In this document: positions 4,546 to 53,536 of the stretch, piece by piece
How positions within the stretch are numbered: the stretch's first letter is position 1
Layout of the letters: each line of letters begins with the position of its first letter
NCBI GenBank assembly: GCA_030913385.1
Contig: CP133159.1
Coordinates: forward strand, 2,378,584-2,442,583
Source: Cytophagaceae bacterium ABcell3
GTDB taxonomy: Bacteria > Bacteroidota > Bacteroidia > Cytophagales > Cytophagaceae
Reading direction: 5' to 3'
DNA: 64,000 nucleotides
Notes under the pieces: generated by a model
What the model was told of the DNA's origin: nothing
The model's input: the letters and a program-made list of their open reading frames with translations, nothing else
Database searches by the model: none
Translations under genes and position numbers: made by a program

Positions 4546-5682
4546 TTAATAATTACCATCTGCTAGCAATTTTGCTATTTTTTCTGAAGCCTTTTGGAGG
4601 AAATAAGGTGCTTTTTCCAAGGTCTCATGGGTAGGGGTGTATGACGATGACAAAGGAATAATCTCAGAAATGCCTAAGTCATAAAGCCCCTCATGACCCT
4701 TTTCTGCTATTCCACAAATAAGAAAAGCAGGCTTTTGGTATTTTTGTGCTAGCTTGGCAATTTCAGCAGGGACTTTCCCTGAAAGTGTCTGTTTGTCTGT
4801 TTTCCCTTCGGCTGTTATGACCACATCACAAGCTTTGATATGTTCTTCAAGGTTGAGCGCTTTAGATATCATTTGAAAGCCCGGCATTAACCTGGCATGG
4901 GGAAATATCAACATTCCTCCTCCTGTACCACCTGCAGCTCCTGAGCCAGGTATATTTTCTATTGACCTGCCCGTATGGCGTTTAATAATCTCAGCCCAAT
5001 ACTTAAGGTTTTGGTCTAAAGCAATTATCATTTTTTCGTCAGCACCTTTTTGATTGGCATAGACGTAAGATGCACCGGTAGGGCCTGTTAAGGGATTTTT
5101 GACATCACAGGCAACAGTTAAAGCAATACTTTGTAAGGATTCTAGCGCAGGCATAAAATTGGCTTTGTGAATTTTAGAAAGATAGCCACCTGCGGGTTTT
5201 ACCTTTTGCTGGTGGCTACCTGTAAACTCAGCACCTAAAGCAGCAAGTATTCCAGCTCCCCCATCATTGGTAGCACTGCCCCCGATGGCTAGTAATATGT
5301 TTTTAACACCTGCTTTTATTGCTTCTTGAATGAGTTGGCCTGTACCATAGGTGGTAGTTTCCCACGGGTTCCTTTCTGTCTTTGTTAGAAGTTCCAATCC
5401 TGAGGCTGAAGCTAATTCTATAATAGCTGTTTGCCGGTCTTGAGACATGCCCCATTTGGCTTTCATAGGCCTCATCAATGGATCCCGAACATTGGCAAAG
5501 CTGATTTGACCTCCTGTGGCTGCCACATAAACTTCCGTTGTGCCTTCGCCTCCATCTGCAAGTGGCATGTTTGTTACTTGTGCATCTGGAAGGACATGCC
5601 CGATACCTGTAGCAATTATAGACGCTACTTGCTTGGCAGATAAGCAGTCTTTCATCGAATCTGGGGCTATTAAAATTTTCAT
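4546..5682 (-). CDS. Glycerate kinase (GarK/GlxK type)
   Basis: 378 residues, the normal length for the GarK/GlxK family, which phosphorylates D-glycerate (usually to 2-phosphoglycerate) and feeds it into glycolysis. The start MKILIAPDSMKDCLSA is the family's characteristic N-terminus. Further family blocks are MPLADGGEGTTEV (residues about 60-72), IGGSATNDGGAG (about 132-143), the glycine-rich GSGAAGGTGGG (about 247-257) and TAEGKTDKQTLSGK (about 289-302). It is cytoplasmic, with no neighbouring glyoxylate or glucarate genes, so the glycerate source is not shown by context. Confidence 0.92.
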   Translation of the reverse strand: MKILIAPDSMKDCLSAKQVASIIATGIGHVLPDAQVTNMPLADGGEGTTEVYVAATGGQISFANVRDPLMRPMKAKWGMSQDRQTAIIELASASGLELLTKTERNPWETTTYGTGQLIQEAIKAGVKNILLAIGGSATNDGGAGILAALGAEFTGSHQQKVKPAGGYLSKIHKANFMPALESLQSIALTVACDVKNPLTGPTGASYVYANQKGADEKMIIALDQNLKYWAEIIKRHTGRSIENIPGSGAAGGTGGGMLIFPHARLMPGFQMISKALNLEEHIKACDVVITAEGKTDKQTLSGKVPAEIAKLAQKYQKPAFLICGIAEKGHEGLYDLGISEIIPLSSSYTPTHETLEKAPYFLQKASEKIAKLLADGNY

Positions 5683-11698: not shown

Positions 11699-14257
11699 AT
11701 GGAAGCAAAATTTTCAAATAGGGTCAAGGAAGTGATTTCGCTAAGCAGAGAGGAAGCTCTCCGTCTGGGGCATGACTATATTGGTGCTGAACATCTTTTA
11801 CTGGGAATGATCAGAGAAGGTGAGGGAGTAGCCATTAGTCTGCTCAAGAAACTGGGTATTTCTCTTGACGAGCTGAGGCTTTCCGTAGAGCAGGCCACCA
11901 AAGGTACTGCCTCTGGGAATGTCAAGAACCTCGCGAATATCCCTTTGACCCGCCAGTCTGAGAAAGTACTGAAAATAACTTATCTTGAAGCTAAAATATT
12001 CAAAAGTGAGCTGATTGGTACAGAGCACTTATTGTTATCTATACTTAGAGATGAAGATAATGTAGCAACGCAAATTCTTGAAAAATTTGACGTAACCTAC
12101 GATGTCATCAAAGAATTACTTGAGTATCATTCGCACAACCCTATGGCTTCTGATACTGATGAAGGAGATGATGAAGGTTCTAGAATTTTTGGAGGATCTG
12201 GTTCTTCAGGTAAAGAGTCAGGTAAAGCGGGTGCTACTGAAAAATCAAGAACACCTGTCCTTGATAACTTTGGTCGTGATTTGACCAAGATGGGTGAAGA
12301 TAATAAACTTGACCCTATCGTAGGTAGGGAAAAGGAAATTGAGCGTGTTGCTCAAATTCTAAGCCGCCGTAAAAAGAACAACCCTATTCTTATAGGTGAG
12401 CCTGGGGTTGGTAAAACAGCTATTGCTGAAGGTCTCGCGCTTAGAATTATTCAGAAAAAAGTTTCAAGGGTTCTTTTCAGTAAACGAGTAGTTACACTTG
12501 ACCTTGCATCTTTGGTTGCAGGAACTAAATACAGAGGACAGTTTGAGGAGCGTATGAAAGCCGTGATGAACGAGCTTGAAAAATCTCCAGAGGTAATCCT
12601 CTTTATAGATGAAATTCATACGATAGTGGGTGCCGGTGGTGCTTCCGGATCTCTGGATGCATCAAACATGTTCAAGCCAGCACTTGCCAGAGGTGATATT
12701 CAATGTATTGGTGCTACTACGCTCGACGAGTACCGTCAGTATATTGAAAAAGATGGTGCGTTGGCCAGAAGGTTTCAAATCGTAATGGTAGATGCTACCA
12801 GTCCTGAAGAAACGGTGGAAATCCTTAACAACATTAAGGAGAAGTATGAAGACCACCACCATGTCAATTACACTGAAGAGGCTGTCGATGCTTGTGTGAA
12901 GCTTTCTGACAGGTATATCAGTGACAGGTTTCTTCCTGATAAAGCGATTGATGTACTTGACGAGGCTGGAGCACGCGTTCATTTAAATAATATTCATGTT
13001 CCTCAAGATATTGTTAAACTTGAAGAGCAAATTGAGAATATTAAAAAGGAGAAGAACAAAGTTGTCAAGAGCCAAAAGTATGAAGAGGCTGCCCAACTGA
13101 GAGATAAAGAAAAGAAACTTCTCGAACAGCTTGAAACTGCCAAGCAGAGATGGGAAGAAGAGACCAAGAAGAAAAGGTATTCTGTAAAAGAAGAGAGCGT
13201 TGCTGAAGTGATTGCCATGATGACTGGTATTCCTGTAAGCCGTATCTCTCAGAATGAAGGTACTAAGCTTCTTGGCATGAAAGAAGAATTGCAAGGTAAG
13301 GTTATTGGTCAGGATGAGGCCATTGTTAAACTTACTAAAGCAATCCAACGTACCAGGGTCGGTCTGAAAGATCCTAAGAAGCCAATTGGTTCATTTGTGT
13401 TCTTGGGGCCAACAGGGGTAGGTAAAACAGAGCTTGCAAAAGTACTTGCTACCTATTTGTTTGATAAGGACGATGCGCTTGTAAGAATAGATATGAGTGA
13501 GTATATGGAGAAATTCTCTGTATCTAGACTTGTAGGAGCACCTCCGGGATATGTTGGTTATGAAGAAGGTGGTCAGCTAACAGAAAAGATCCGTCGTAAG
13601 CCTTATAGTGTTGTATTGCTTGACGAGATCGAAAAAGCGCACCCAGATGTGTTTAACTTATTGCTTCAGGTCTTGGACGATGGTATTCTTACCGATGGCC
13701 TTGGTAGAAGAGTTGATTTTAGAAACACCATCATCATTATGACATCTAATATCGGAGCCAGAGACTTGAAAGACTTTGGCGCAGGAATTGGTTTTGCCAC
13801 CAAATCCAAAACCGATAACTTAGATGAGTTGATGAAAGGTACTATTCAGAGTGCGCTTAGAAAAGCGTTTTCTCCTGAATTCCTAAACCGTCTTGATGAT
13901 GTGATCGTGTTTAACTCTCTTGAGCGTGAGCATATCCATAGGATTATTGATATTACGCTTAAGAGCGTTTTCAATAGAATCCTTACACTTGGATATAATG
14001 TTGAGCTTACTGAGAAAGCTAAAGATTTTCTTTCTGAAAAAGGCTACGATCCTCAGTATGGCGCACGTCCGTTAAACAGAGCTATACAAAAGCACTTGGA
14101 AGACCCTATTGCAGAAGAAATTCTCAAAGGTGATGTTCAACAAGGTGATACGTTGGTAGCAGATCATGATGGAAAGAGTGATTCTTTGCATCTGAAAATT
14201 GAGAAAAAGAAAGTTAATACGGAAGAAGGCGGTAGTTCATCTTCTTCTGATAAATAA
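11699..14257 (+). CDS. clpC: ATP-dependent Clp protease ATPase subunit ClpC
   Basis: 852 residues. Two Clp N-domain repeats lie at 1-150, followed by a Gly/Ser-rich linker. The first AAA+ module has Walker A GEPGVGKT at about 233-240 and Walker [15 protein letters not shown]-like coiled region is at about 441-480, the mark of ClpC rather than ClpB or ClpA. The second AAA+ module has GPTGVGKT at about 570-577. ClpC unfolds proteins and feeds them to ClpP, usually aided by adaptors; neither clpP nor an adaptor gene is next to it. The C-terminus ends in a Ser-rich tail. A strong terminator follows, so it is transcribed alone. Confidence 0.96.
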
Positions 14258-14321: not shown

Positions 14322-14740
14322 TTAGGATCTGACGAAAAAGTCACAAGTGTGTGTAGCCACAAGGCATCCCTTGTGGCTACACTACGCATAGCCTTACATG
14401 AAGATGTATGTGCGCTTGTGGCTAGCCCAAAAAAGCATTTGATTAAACCTGCAATATGCGATAGAACTTCTATTACGTGGCAAAATTACTTCAAATCAGT
14501 CGCTTCGCTTACATTTGTGTCTTAATCATAACGCTGCTATGCTTTGCGACCCAAAAGTGCTGATTTACTGTTATTTTGCTCCTTATGACGAAATCTATCG
14601 CATAATTCAGGTTAAAAGTTTCTCAATTTACTGTGCACGGGAAAATGAGAATTAACCGAAAAAAACTTGCACTTATACCTCATAATTTTTATACAAATAT
14701 AAACAGATCAGAATTTTGGGCGTTTTTCAGTGCGCCCTAA
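14322..14740. repeat. Family 2 inverted-repeat element, interrupted by family 1
   Basis: Starts TTAGGATCTGACGAAAAAGT and ends TTTTTCAGTGCGCCCTAA, which are imperfect inverted repeats of each other. Internal blocks (TCACAAGTGTG, CCTTACATGAAGA, GCGCTTGTGGCTAGCCC, TTTACTGTGCA) recur in the same order in the copy at 46116-46372. Without the 166-bp insert and its 3-bp duplication at 14447-14615 the element is 250 bp, against 257 bp for the other copy. There is no open reading frame of note, so it is a non-autonomous element. Confidence 0.75.
14447..14612 (+). repeat. Family 1 inverted-repeat element, nested copy
   Basis: 166 bp with ends ACCTGCAATATGCGATAG and CTATCGCATAATTCAGGT, which are inverted repeats. 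Flanked on both sides by TAA (14444-14446 and 14613-14615). The uninterrupted site GATTAAAAG is present in the family 2 copy at 46.2 kb, so element and target duplication can be set exactly. The core has further inverted blocks (TTACTTCAAATCAG and CTGATTTACTG), giving one long imperfect hairpin. Confidence 0.8.
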
Positions 14741-15090: not shown

Positions 15091-16995
15091 TTATTTTAGA
15101 ATTTCTTTCAAATCATCACGGTAAATCACTTCTTTTTCTAAAAGCACTTTACCAATGCTTTCTAATTTATTTTTCTGTTTGAGAAACATGTTTTTAATAT
15201 CCTGGTAGCATTCATCTACAAGTTTTCTCACTTCCTGGTCTATCATTTTTCCAGTTTCTTCGCTATATGGTTTTTGGAAGCTTTCTTGTCCAGAGGAGTC
15301 ATAGTAGCTTATGTTTCCAACTTTTTCTCCAAGACCATAATAGGCAATCATACCATAAGCTTGCTTACTTACCCTTTCCAAGTCATCCAATGCGCCAGAG
15401 GTTACCTCTTCAAAAATTACGTCTTCTGCAGCTCGGCCTGCCAACATGATTTTTATTTCGTTTTTGAGTTTTGAAAGGCTCAAAAGTTTCAGTTCTTCCG
15501 GTTTGTTCCACGTAGCACCTAACGATTTCCCCCTTGGAATAATGGTAACTTTAACTACGCCTTCTATTCCTTTTAGAAGTACAGTTGCCAAGGCATGCCC
15601 AGCTTCATGGTAAGCAACTGTCTTTTTTTCTTCTGGAGAAAGTACGCTACTTCTGTTTTCTAGTCCACCCACGATTCTGTCTAAGGCATCAGAGAATTCC
15701 GGTTGGCCTACTTTTTTCTTTTTCCTTCTGGCGGCCAATAGTGCAGCTTCATTGCAAACATTTGCTATGTCGGCACCGGAAAATCCCGGGGTTTGAGAAG
15801 CAAGCGTTTCAGTGTTTACATTCTCTTCTAGGTTTAAGTGTTTCATGTGCACTTGAAATATATCTTTTCGCTCTTTGTTGTTTGGGAGTTCTAGATATAT
15901 ATGCCTGTCAAAACGACCAGGCCTCATAATAGCTTTATCCAATACTTCACCTCGGTTGGTAGCGGCTAATACTATAACCCCTGAATTTGGGGTGAAGCCA
16001 TCCATTTCGGTGAGCAATTGGTTCAATGTATTTTCCCTTTCGTCATTGGCACCGCCCATCGAATTGTTTTTGCCCCTAGATCTTCCTATGGCGTCTAACT
16101 CATCTATAAAAATTATGCAGGGGGCTTTTTCTTTGGCTTTATTAAACAAGTCCCTTACCCTAGAAGCACCTACTCCAACAAACATTTCTACAAATTCAGA
16201 GCCTGATAATGAGAAAAATGGAACTTGTGCTTCACCTGCCACAGCTTTGGCTACTAATGTTTTACCTGTTCCGGGAGGGCCGGCCAACAGTACCCCTTTT
16301 GGTATCCTAGCACCTAGTTTAGTATAATTTTGAGGATGTTTTAAAAAATCTACCGTTTCCTGTAGCTCTGCTTTTGCTTCTTCCATCCCTGCTACATCTT
16401 TAAAACTTACTCCTAGCTTATCATGACTAGTAAACATTTTAGCTTTTGATTGGCCAAAGGAGAACATATTGCCTCCTGCGCCGCCTTTGCTCATGCGCCG
16501 CCCCCAGGAAAAGATTAGAATAAGAAGTAAAAGGGGAAAGGCCAAAATGAGTAACCACGACCAATCGGTAGAAGAAGTATATATGACTTCCGCTTGCTCA
16601 TCTTCAGGAAATTCTCTTTGGATACGCCACAGCCTATCTTCAAAAATTTCTGGTGTACCTATGTTAAATTGGTATTGTGCGCCTGTGGTCTCAAATAAAG
16701 CAGGAGTGTCCTCGTCATTTATTTCCTCGTTCACTTCTACGTCTTCTCGCAAAGTTACTTCTGCAATTTCCCTATCTATTACTTTAACACTTTCTACTTT
16801 TTTATTCTTTACCATTTCCTCAAAGTCAGTCCATGTAATTTCGGCAGGTCCGCCAGGAGACCAAAGCCAGAACATTACCATTAGAAACAGCAAAAAGTAG
16901 ATTAAGTATTTTAAATATCCTCCTGAAATGTCAGGGTTGTTAGTATCTTGTGGATCTTTTTTATCCGGTTCGTTCTTGCTCATCTTTTCGTACAT
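15091..16995 (-). CDS. ftsH: ATP-dependent zinc metalloprotease FtsH
   Basis: 634 residues; ATGs at 16995 and 16983 are both usable. A membrane helix at about 29-45 and a second near 146-164 flank a periplasmic region of about 100 residues, the FtsH topology. The AAA module has Walker A GPPGTGKT at about 238-245 and the second region of homology with ATNRGEVLDKAIMRPGRFDR. The zinc site HEAGH is at about 462-466. FtsH degrades membrane and short-lived cytosolic proteins. It is transcribed alone, diverges from the DUF2141 gene, and ends at a strong terminator. Confidence 0.96.
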   Translation of the reverse strand: MYEKMSKNEPDKKDPQDTNNPDISGGYLKYLIYFLLFLMVMFWLWSPGGPAEITWTDFEEMVKNKKVESVKVIDREIAEVTLREDVEVNEEINDEDTPALFETTGAQYQFNIGTPEIFEDRLWRIQREFPEDEQAEVIYTSSTDWSWLLILAFPLLLLILIFSWGRRMSKGGAGGNMFSFGQSKAKMFTSHDKLGVSFKDVAGMEEAKAELQETVDFLKHPQNYTKLGARIPKGVLLAGPPGTGKTLVAKAVAGEAQVPFFSLSGSEFVEMFVGVGASRVRDLFNKAKEKAPCIIFIDELDAIGRSRGKNNSMGGANDERENTLNQLLTEMDGFTPNSGVIVLAATNRGEVLDKAIMRPGRFDRHIYLELPNNKERKDIFQVHMKHLNLEENVNTETLASQTPGFSGADIANVCNEAALLAARRKKKKVGQPEFSDALDRIVGGLENRSSVLSPEEKKTVAYHEAGHALATVLLKGIEGVVKVTIIPRGKSLGATWNKPEELKLLSLSKLKNEIKIMLAGRAAEDVIFEEVTSGALDDLERVSKQAYGMIAYYGLGEKVGNISYYDSSGQESFQKPYSEETGKMIDQEVRKLVDECYQDIKNMFLKQKNKLESIGKVLLEKEVIYRDDLKEILK

Positions 16996-17751: not shown

Positions 17752-17915
17752 ACCTGAAATATGCGTTAGAACCTTTTATTGCGTGGCATAACAACTTCAA
17801 ATCAGACGCTTCGCTCACATTTGGTTTTTATCCATAGAACCACTATGCTTTGCAAACCAAATACGCTGATTTTTTGTTCTTTTGCCCTTCATAACGAAAC
17901 CTAATGCATTAAAAA
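17752..17915 (+). repeat. Family 1 inverted-repeat element, right end eroded
   Basis: Starts ACCTGAAATATGCGTTAGAA and follows the 31625 copy closely through AACTTCAAATCAGACGCTTC, CACTATGCTTTGCAAACC and TTCATAACGAAACCTAATGC. The last bases (CAGGT) are lost or replaced, so the right boundary is approximate. It lies 5 bp after the DUF2141 stop codon. Confidence 0.7.
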
Positions 17916-19140: not shown

Positions 19141-19286
19141 TTAGATAAACTCACAAGTGTGCAGATATGTGTGGCCTTCTGTGAAGACTTATTGGAAGTA
19201 CTTCGAATCTGAGGCTATAGCGTTTGTGCACTTGTGACTAGTTAAAAGAAACGATGGATCAAATTTTCTCAATATCCCATTGTAAA
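19141..19286. repeat. Family 2 inverted-repeat element, degenerate copy
   Basis: Opens TTAGATAAACTCACAAGTGT and keeps family 2 blocks in order: GTGTGGCC, GTGAAGACTTATTGGAAGTA, CTTCGAAT, GTGCACTTGTGACTAG, TTTTCTCAAT. The terminal TTTTTCAG...CCCTAA end is missing. It runs to the last codon of the LysR gene. Confidence 0.6.
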
Positions 19287-29295: not shown

Positions 29296-29454
29296 ACCTG
29301 AACTATGGGGTTATGAGGAGCAGAAAAGACAATAAATCAGCACTTTTGGATCGCAAAGCATAGTGCCGGTATGGTTTAAGACATAAATGTGAGCAAAGTA
29401 CTGATTTGAAGTTATTTGTTTACGTAATGGAAAGTTCTAATGCACATTTCAGGT
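29296..29454 (-). repeat. Family 1 inverted-repeat element
   Basis: 159 bp, in the opposite orientation to the 14447 copy. Ends ACCTGAACTATGG and TGCACATTTCAGGT, flanked by TAA at 29293-29295 and 29455-29457. The core holds AATCAGCACTTTTGGATCGC and ACTGATTTGAAGTTATTTG, the inverted blocks shared by the family. It ends 20 bp before the stop codon of the VWA protein gene. Confidence 0.8.
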
Positions 29455-31624: not shown

Positions 31625-31792
31625 ACCTGAAATATGCATTAGAACTTTCTATTGCGTGGCAAAATAACTTCAAATCAGACGCTTCGCTCGCATTTGGTTT
31701 TTTAACCATAGAACCACTATGCTTTGCAAACCAAATACGCTGATTTTTTGTTCTTTTGCCCCTCATAACGAAATCTAATGTATAATCCAGGT
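31625..31792 (+). repeat. Family 1 inverted-repeat element abutting fabG
   Basis: 168 bp with ends ACCTGAAATATGCATTAGAA and TAATGTATAATCCAGGT. It is flanked by TTA on the left (31622-31624) and TTA on the right (31793-31795); the right repeat is also the stop codon of the fabG gene read on the - strand. It is the best preserved copy together with those at 14447 and 29296. Confidence 0.82.
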
Positions 31793-46115: not shown

Positions 46116-46372
46116 TTAGGGCCTGCTGAAAAAGTCACAAATGTGCAAGATACGCATGGCCTTACATGAAGACGTATTGGAATACTTCGAATGTAAGGCC
46201 ATAAAGTAGATTGTGCGCTTGTGGCTAGCCCAAAAAAAGTATTGGATTAAAAGTTTTTCAGTTTACTGTGCATGGAATAATAAGAAATAACCGAAAAAAC
46301 CTTGCACCTATACCTCATAACCTTTAACATATAAACAGATCAATGTTTTGGGCGTTTTTCAGCGCGCCCTAA
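46116..46372. repeat. Family 2 inverted-repeat element, intact copy
   Basis: 257 bp. The ends TTAGGGCCTGCTGAAAAA and TTTTTCAGCGCGCCCTAA are inverted repeats at 16 of 18 positions. Inside, GGCCTTACATGAAGACGTAT is mirrored by GAATGTAAGGCC and TCACAAATGTGC by GTGCGCTTGTGG, so the element folds into nested hairpins. It carries no coding frame. This copy shows the uninterrupted site (GATTAAAAG, about 46244-46252) where the 14.3-kb copy holds a family 1 insertion. Confidence 0.8.
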
Positions 46373-50566: not shown

Positions 50567-50721
50567 ACCTGAATTCTGCATTAGATTTCGTTATGAGGGG
50601 CAAAAGAACAAAAAATCAGCGTATTTGGTTTGCAAAGCAAGTTAAAAAACAAATGCGAACGAAGCGTCTGATTTGAAGTTGTTTTGCCACGAAATAAAAG
50701 TTACTATTGCATATTTCTATT
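50567..50721 (-). repeat. Family 1 inverted-repeat element abutting a gene end
   Basis: About 155 bp in the same orientation as the 29296 copy. It starts ACCTGAATTCTGCATTAGAT and keeps CGTTATGAGGGGCAAAAGAA, GTATTTGGTTTGCAAAGC and GATTTGAAGTTGTTTTGCC. Its right end has lost the exact CAGGT (reads CTATT). It runs to the stop codon (TAA, read on the - strand at 50722-50724) of the barrel protein gene. Confidence 0.75.
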
Positions 50722-53260: not shown

Positions 53261-53333
53261 GATTCCGTAGCTCAGCTGGTAGAGCAATACACTTTTAATG
53301 TATGGGTCCTGGGTTCGAATCCCAGCGGGATCA
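53261..53333 (+). tRNA. tRNA-Lys (anticodon TTT), copy 1
   Basis: A 73-nt cloverleaf with acceptor stem GATTCCG/CGGGATC. The anticodon loop CTTTTAA carries TTT, and the T-arm is CTGGG-TTCGAAT-CCCAG. Identical in sequence to copy 2, 130 bp downstream. Confidence 0.95.
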
Positions 53334-53463: not shown

Positions 53464-53536
53464 GATTCCGTAGCTCAGCTGGTAGAGCAATACACTTTTA
53501 ATGTATGGGTCCTGGGTTCGAATCCCAGCGGGATCA
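53464..53536 (+). tRNA. tRNA-Lys (anticodon TTT), copy 2
   Basis: The same 73 bases as copy 1, and also the same 12 or so bases just upstream (GACATAAAATATC). It is followed by a hairpin terminator. Confidence 0.95.

Follow-up and report, generated by a model that had tools for sequence, protein, structure and literature searches.

An apparently orphan MITE with IS1380-type ends inserted into a second MITE with IS5-type ends in a Cytophagaceae bacterium

A short repeat, here called family 1, is inserted into a copy of an unrelated mobile repeat, family 2, in Cytophagaceae bacterium ABcell3. Family 1 is very probably a MITE with IS1380-type ends that was moved in trans by an IS1380 transposase, and this transposase would since have been lost or have been present only transiently. 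The filled site and an empty counterpart both lie in the window, the 64-kb stretch of DNA analysed here out of a single-contig genome of 5.1 Mb (Table 1). The nested locus is bordered by a Clp-type ATPase gene (11699-14257) on one side and an ftsH gene (15091-16995) on the other. Here, two unrelated MITE families of one genome delimit each other.

Table 1. Family 1 and family 2 features in the window (window coordinates)
Feature	Position	Strand	Length	Details and basis
Family 2 element (IS5-type MITE)	14322..14740	+	419 bp	Parts 14322-14446 and 14613-14740 on the two sides of the insert; basis, alignment to the 46116 copy
Family 1 element (MITE, IS1380-type ends)	14447..14612	+	166 bp	ACC..GGT; alternatively 14448-14611, 164 bp, CC..GG
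Left target copy, TTAAA	14443..14447	+		TAA at 14444-14446 in the 3-bp reading; sequence and flank statistics
Right target copy, TTAAA	14612..14616	+		TAA at 14613-14615 in the 3-bp reading; sequence and flank statistics
Family 2 element without insert	46116..46372	+	257 bp	Unoccupied site GATTAAAAG at 46245-46253, single TTAAA at 46247-46251
Family 2, partial copy	19144..19276	+		nhmmer, 87.1 bits
Family 1 copy	17753..17909	+		nhmmer, 145.6 bits
Family 1 copy	29297..29453	-		nhmmer, 113.5 bits
Family 1 copy	31625..31792	+	168 bp	TTA on either side; nhmmer and end-pair search
Family 1 copy	50568..50717	-		nhmmer, 127.4 bits

Global alignment of the two long family 2 copies showed one 169-base gap (166 + 3), across which the flanks join at GATTAAAAG; the gap falls at 14443-14611 in the placement shown, and 168 alignments tie in score. 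This alignment had been proposed in the first-pass annotation, which was made from the letters alone, and the gap and junction are those it predicted. The letters and coordinates that it gave for both copies, the insert and the TAA borders also proved accurate. Its sizes of 250 and 257 bp, obtained by removing the insert and one TAA, are arithmetically right (419 - 166 - 3 = 250) but leave out the indels besides the insert: the 46116 copy has three further gaps (8, 18 and 3 bases) and the 14322 copy has two (35 bases and 1 base). Because the two copies carry different internal hairpin segments, the figures of 250 and 257 bp partly reflect compensating indels. Outside the gaps, the copies match at 195 of 221 positions. 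With nhmmer, the interrupted copy was picked up as two pieces (14323-14447 and 14609-14739).

The site was also compared in 40 other near-full-length family 2 copies (245-259 bp; nhmmer scores above 250 bits) from a 0.87-Mb sample of the genome, picked mostly around family 2 hits and not drawn at random. All 40 lack an insert at the site, where 31 keep G(G/A)TTAA(A)AG and nine have point variants. The empty sites are paralogous family 2 copies and not an orthologous locus. No same-genus genome was present among the relatives examined; the best 80 BipA relatives (81-85% identity) came mostly from Pontibacter, Hymenobacter, Rufibacter, Spirosoma, Sporocytophaga and other Cytophagales. FtsH as a probe against named genomes gave no match, and neither did a search of a plasmid collection. 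A filled/empty comparison has no direction by itself, so the 14322 copy could in principle be ancestral, with the insert lost from the other family 2 copies by precise excision. We consider this extremely unlikely, given one filled copy against 40 unoccupied ones and many family 1 copies that lie outside family 2 and have duplicated flanks.

Family 1 is abundant in the genome. The end pattern ACCTGNNNTATGCGATAGA had 114 + 92 matches in the 5.1 Mb with up to two mismatches, compared with 2 + 0 for the reversed pattern, and the family is therefore not a product of chance. With up to three mismatches, 192 ends were found in the sample, against 41 for the reversed pattern. These formed 39 inverted pairs with spacings of 42-173 bp, most often 166-169, and left 114 ends unpaired. 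Equal 3-mers stand outside 18 of the 39 pairs (TTA 12, TAA 5, TCA 1); three of the 39 pairs represent a single copy multiplied by a local duplication. That duplication was seen in stretch L142 (G000:C1:4722505-4735409, G000 being the genome of ABcell3), where three family 1 copies (1001-1169, 5340-5508 and 13737-13905) have the same ends, flanks and scores and were apparently carried along within 13 kb by duplication of the surrounding DNA. The window copy has ends ACCTG..CAGGT and 57-nt arms that are 72% complementary. Family 1 is thus short, with terminal inverted repeats, many copies and a target site duplication, which are the MITE features that we tested. Nine candidate pairs of family 1 ends lie 0.3-3 kb apart in the sample, and in the two that were read, small elements lie on either side of an ordinary gene or of a family 2 copy.

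Forms of 42 bp, with little beyond two family 1 ends, were also observed (25 pattern matches at 16 distinct places; reversed control, 0), for example at 1501-1542 of stretches L333, L340 and L341. Among 13 that were fetched, equal 3-mers lie outside five and equal 5-mers outside three. These forms either moved at that size or shrank later.

Relatives of family 1 are present in other Cytophagales. The whole 166-bp query had no match among 38 related genomes. A shorter end pattern matched at least once in 77 of 390 Cytophagales genomes (ABcell3 included), with single matches at about the control level. Four genomes stood out against controls of 0: G300 (10 + 15), G291 (5 + 6), G318 (5 + 4) and G288 (2 + 5). 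Forty stretches were fetched around end-pattern matches. Nine genomes from four genera (G291, G300, G318, G288, G231 and G065; G258; G267; G141) proved to contain elements of 161-194 bp. The full-size elements of all nine have the same ends and target, and shorter forms of 53-106 bp also occur in the fetched stretches. Twelve foreign elements, one of which (L279) carries masked N, align to a copy from ABcell3 better than interior-shuffled versions do (z 4.6-11.0). The palindrome CCGCCGCGGCGG was noticed at one place in the left arm in L271 (G291), L301 (G288) and L305 (G258), and other small palindromes occur at other places in elements, such as L276 and L297.

The ends of family 1 are shared with transposons of the IS1380 family in three other Cytophagales genomes. 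G300 holds a 440-amino-acid gene between family 1-type ends, which scored 259.9 bits with NF033539, transpos_IS1380 (cut-off 180). In its four contig-edge copies, both TAA and TGA are found outside the left end and again outside the right end; as they sit at contig edges, we infer the pairing of left with right. G018, from the same GTDB family as the window, holds a complete 1392-bp IS1380 element with TTA on both sides, a transposase scoring 242.5 bits (NF033539), and left and right ends with six mismatches over 20 positions. Three contig starts in G200 carry the tail of a similar gene that reaches into a family 1-type end, with a one-base change at the terminus in one of them. The flanks of the IS1380 copies are TTAAA and TTGAA in G300 (as paired above) and TTTAA in G018, and fit the TTNAA of family 1. 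Whereas the IS1380 copies are about 1.4 kb long and encode a transposase of 436-440 amino acids, family 1 has 164-166 bp, encodes nothing and forms one long hairpin. The first-pass annotation had taken family 1 for a discrete unit that moved, and this view is borne out by the many copies, the duplicated flanks, the relatives from further genera and the presence of the same ends around a transposase family elsewhere.

The genome of ABcell3 had no match to the IS1380 model at E 0.001 and none to the G300 IS1380 protein. Seven genomes had four or more end matches (G000, G231, G258, G288, G291, G300 and G318), and among them only G300 itself matched the G300 protein; as a single protein served as the query, more divergent IS1380 genes may have escaped this search in genomes other than the window's own. 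With no detectable IS1380 transposase in that genome, its roughly 200 family 1 ends look orphaned. The absent gene lowers current mobility and has no bearing on the origin of the ends. Our link between family 1 and IS1380 is drawn from ends and target only, with the proposed motor in other genomes, and it is the shared ends that point to mobilization in trans. An IS1380 transposase would recognize the roughly 19-base ends (A)CCYGRNWTATGCNNTAGA and insert at TTNAA, duplicating TTNAA; if the outer A and T are assigned to the element, the duplication would read TNA. The copy at 14448-14611 would have entered an older family 2 element at TTAAA. We infer that the IS1380 gene was later lost from the genome, or was there only transiently, which would have left the copies orphaned.

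We considered whether another transposase family, now lost, moved family 1, with the IS1380 likeness due to borrowed ends. No motor was found in the genome with the models searched there (DDE_Tnp_1, IS982 and IS1380), as this explanation would predict, but both ends and the flank type are common to IS1380 elements in three other genomes, and we regard it as quite improbable. A TNA duplication also points to IS1031-like (IS5) elements. This origin was rejected; such ends were not found, and it is IS1380 genes that carry the family 1 ends.

IS982 is another candidate motor, since its elements likewise start with AC and the genome holds one broken relic, with ends ACCTGAGTTCGA; an element in one relative (L229) has ends ACGTGAATTATGGATAA. 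IS982 ends, however, agree with family 1 only over roughly the first 7-12 bases, and the flank repeats, seen with at least 4 bp in 11 of 30 IS982 loci, are 4-8 bp long and TA-rich (TTCTA, TAAATA, TAATCTA) and not TTNAA. The full family 1 end sits on IS1380 genes instead, and mobilization by IS982 would call for a complete element with TATGCNNTAGA ends and TTNAA flanks. We therefore consider it highly unlikely that an IS982-family transposase moved family 1. The relic (L218, about 1316-2346; G000:C1, near 3521891-3522598) is single, has one internal stop and is flanked by TTCTA on both sides. An isolated family 1 end lies less than 0.8 kb away from it, which we take to be coincidental given some 200 ends in 5.1 Mb.

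Returning to IS1380 as the probable motor, we asked how the 169 extra bases are to be divided. With the target TTNAA, they can be read as 166 + 3 (ACC..GGT, TNA), 165 + 4 or 164 + 5 (CC..GG, TTNAA). At such a palindromic target, a filled/empty pair fixes the inserted length and not the boundary between element and target. The earlier proposal of a 3-bp duplication thus stands as far as the 169 extra bases and the duplicated flank are concerned, but the number 3 is not fixed by the pair, and 5 bp fits equally well. In 36 elements from other Cytophagales, a T precedes TNA in 33 and an A follows it in 33. Mismatches between the two 5-mers are flat over the five positions (3, 3, 4, 2 and 4), and the next bases outward are mixed. 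Equal 3-mers flank 31 of the 36 and equal 5-mers 28; in the more decayed elements of ABcell3 the counts are 26 and 17 of 63. In ISfinder, IS1380 elements have CC ends and duplications of 4-5 bp. ISEcp1, of the IS1380 family, makes AT-rich duplications of 5 bp (PMC2887853), and this argues for the longer duplication here as well. We favour a probable 5-bp TTNAA duplication made by a 164-bp CC...GG element. The same motor might instead make a 3-bp TNA duplication, with the outer A and T inside the element and TTNAA as a target preference. The ends would then be symmetric as ACC..GGT, and the slight excess of equal 3-mers over equal 5-mers in the 36 foreign elements would fit. A 3-bp duplication with a TTNAA preference gives the same letters as a 5-bp one, so that sequence alone does not separate the two. 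The T and A around TNA, the flat mismatches, the mixed bases beyond and the ISEcp1 precedent nevertheless make the 3-bp duplication somewhat unlikely.

Family 2 has its probable parent type in the same genome. A first look gave 127 candidates, and the 40 scored copies are 87-100% identical to the query; the family was not found among 58 related genomes. Its ends are GGGCCTGCTGAAAAA and GGGCGCGCTGAAAAA, with about 251 bp between GGG and CCC and no transposase gene. Flanks are equal over 6 bp in 20 of 41 copies, over 7 bp in nine and over fewer in 12. DDE transposase matches occur at 22 places in the genome, and one group of eight copies has the ends GGGTCTGCTGAAAAA and TANNTA on both sides in every copy. 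A base-level comparison of six copies in one orientation showed no difference over 1648 bp; the remaining two run in the opposite orientation. The 516-amino-acid product scored 376.8 bits with NF033578, IS5 family transposase (cut-off 275). Family 2 resembles this IS5-type element in the GGGYCTGCTGAAAAA ends and the TANNTA duplication but differs from it in lacking the transposase gene, in its size, in its right end GGGCGCGCTGAAAAA and in its equal flanks of 6 or 7 bp. Judged by these letters, family 2 is a separate MITE with IS5-type GGGYCTGCTGAAAAA ends and a TANN(N)TA duplication matching that of the eight-copy element. As ends and duplications differ between family 1 and family 2, two motors would have been at work, one that is present and one that was not found. 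The nesting can thus be traced to two candidate transposase families, of which one is present in identical copies and the other is apparently gone.

The gene context was taken from simple ORF calls (85% coding). More than half of the element overlaps an ORF in only 2 of 35 classified family 1 copies and 2 of 39 family 2 copies. Of the 39 family 2 copies, 23 occupy convergent gaps and one a divergent gap, compared with 81 convergent gaps among 442 element-free ones. This strong enrichment between convergent genes may reflect survival rather than targeting. The 35 family 1 gaps comprise 17 tandem, 10 convergent and 8 divergent ones.

The family 1 hairpin is more stable than expected, and its arms covary in seven foreign genomes of two genera. 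A folding energy of -48.3 kcal/mol was obtained for the window copy (z -5.2 relative to dinucleotide shuffles), and z ranges from -2.0 to -9.1 over the 12 elements tested. For covariation, 14 of 31 foreign elements were chosen for similar length (167-168 bp). In a 48-pair structure for these 14, pairing holds in 95.7% of cells, and 13 of the 48 pairs show Watson-Crick changes on both sides; the structure was derived from the alignment on which it is scored and is thereby favoured, and shared ancestry inflates the counts. Structures slid along the alignment reached 28-40% pairing and at most two pairs with both-sided changes. Four of five covariation measures beat all 500 shuffles; the fifth, further pair types, was reached by 464 of the 500. 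Both-sided changes occupy 33 cells, against 6 one-sided ones, of which 5 are in the apical stem. Outside the apical stem, G-T steps are almost absent, a pattern that would fit arms pairing as DNA, or being homogenized, better than selection on RNA.

The copies of ABcell3 alone gave 28 pairs, five with both-sided changes. When own and foreign elements were mixed (24 elements), RNAalifold returned the terminal stem only, with 12 pairs, four of them with both-sided changes. This result speaks against a simple structure common to all, although the interiors are visibly displaced by the aligner. We tentatively raise the possibility, which we hold to be less likely than its opposite, that family 1 is part of a long-lived Cytophagales lineage of hairpins of about 167 nt, in which the folded DNA shape is maintained and length and left/right asymmetry are fixed, and which usually outlasts the IS1380 gene; the 42-bp forms may spread too. 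The transposition substrate would then have to fold as DNA, for example as a single strand or a cruciform, or template switching would homogenize the arms. If the covariation reflects selection on folded DNA, the need of small DDE transposon derivatives to fold becomes testable.

Family 1 can be compared with QMITE2 of Coxiella burnetii (review PMC10969869) and MITEAba12 of Acinetobacter, which are likewise small, with terminal inverted repeats, direct repeats and a predicted stem-loop, but which have different ends and different hosts. IS1380 is not mentioned in the review. Our literature searches for IS1380 MITEs in Bacteroidetes and for miniature inverted repeats in Cytophagales found none. 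Family 1 apparently is an orphan MITE with IS1380 ends, and as such a known kind of element; its covarying hairpin is the interesting part. On five loci with family 1 or family 2, nothing in Rfam matched at E values up to 0.1. At gathering scores, the only Rfam matches in the window were tRNAs; two tRNA genes (53261-53333 and 53464-53536) stand in tandem about 130 bp apart and have equal scores.
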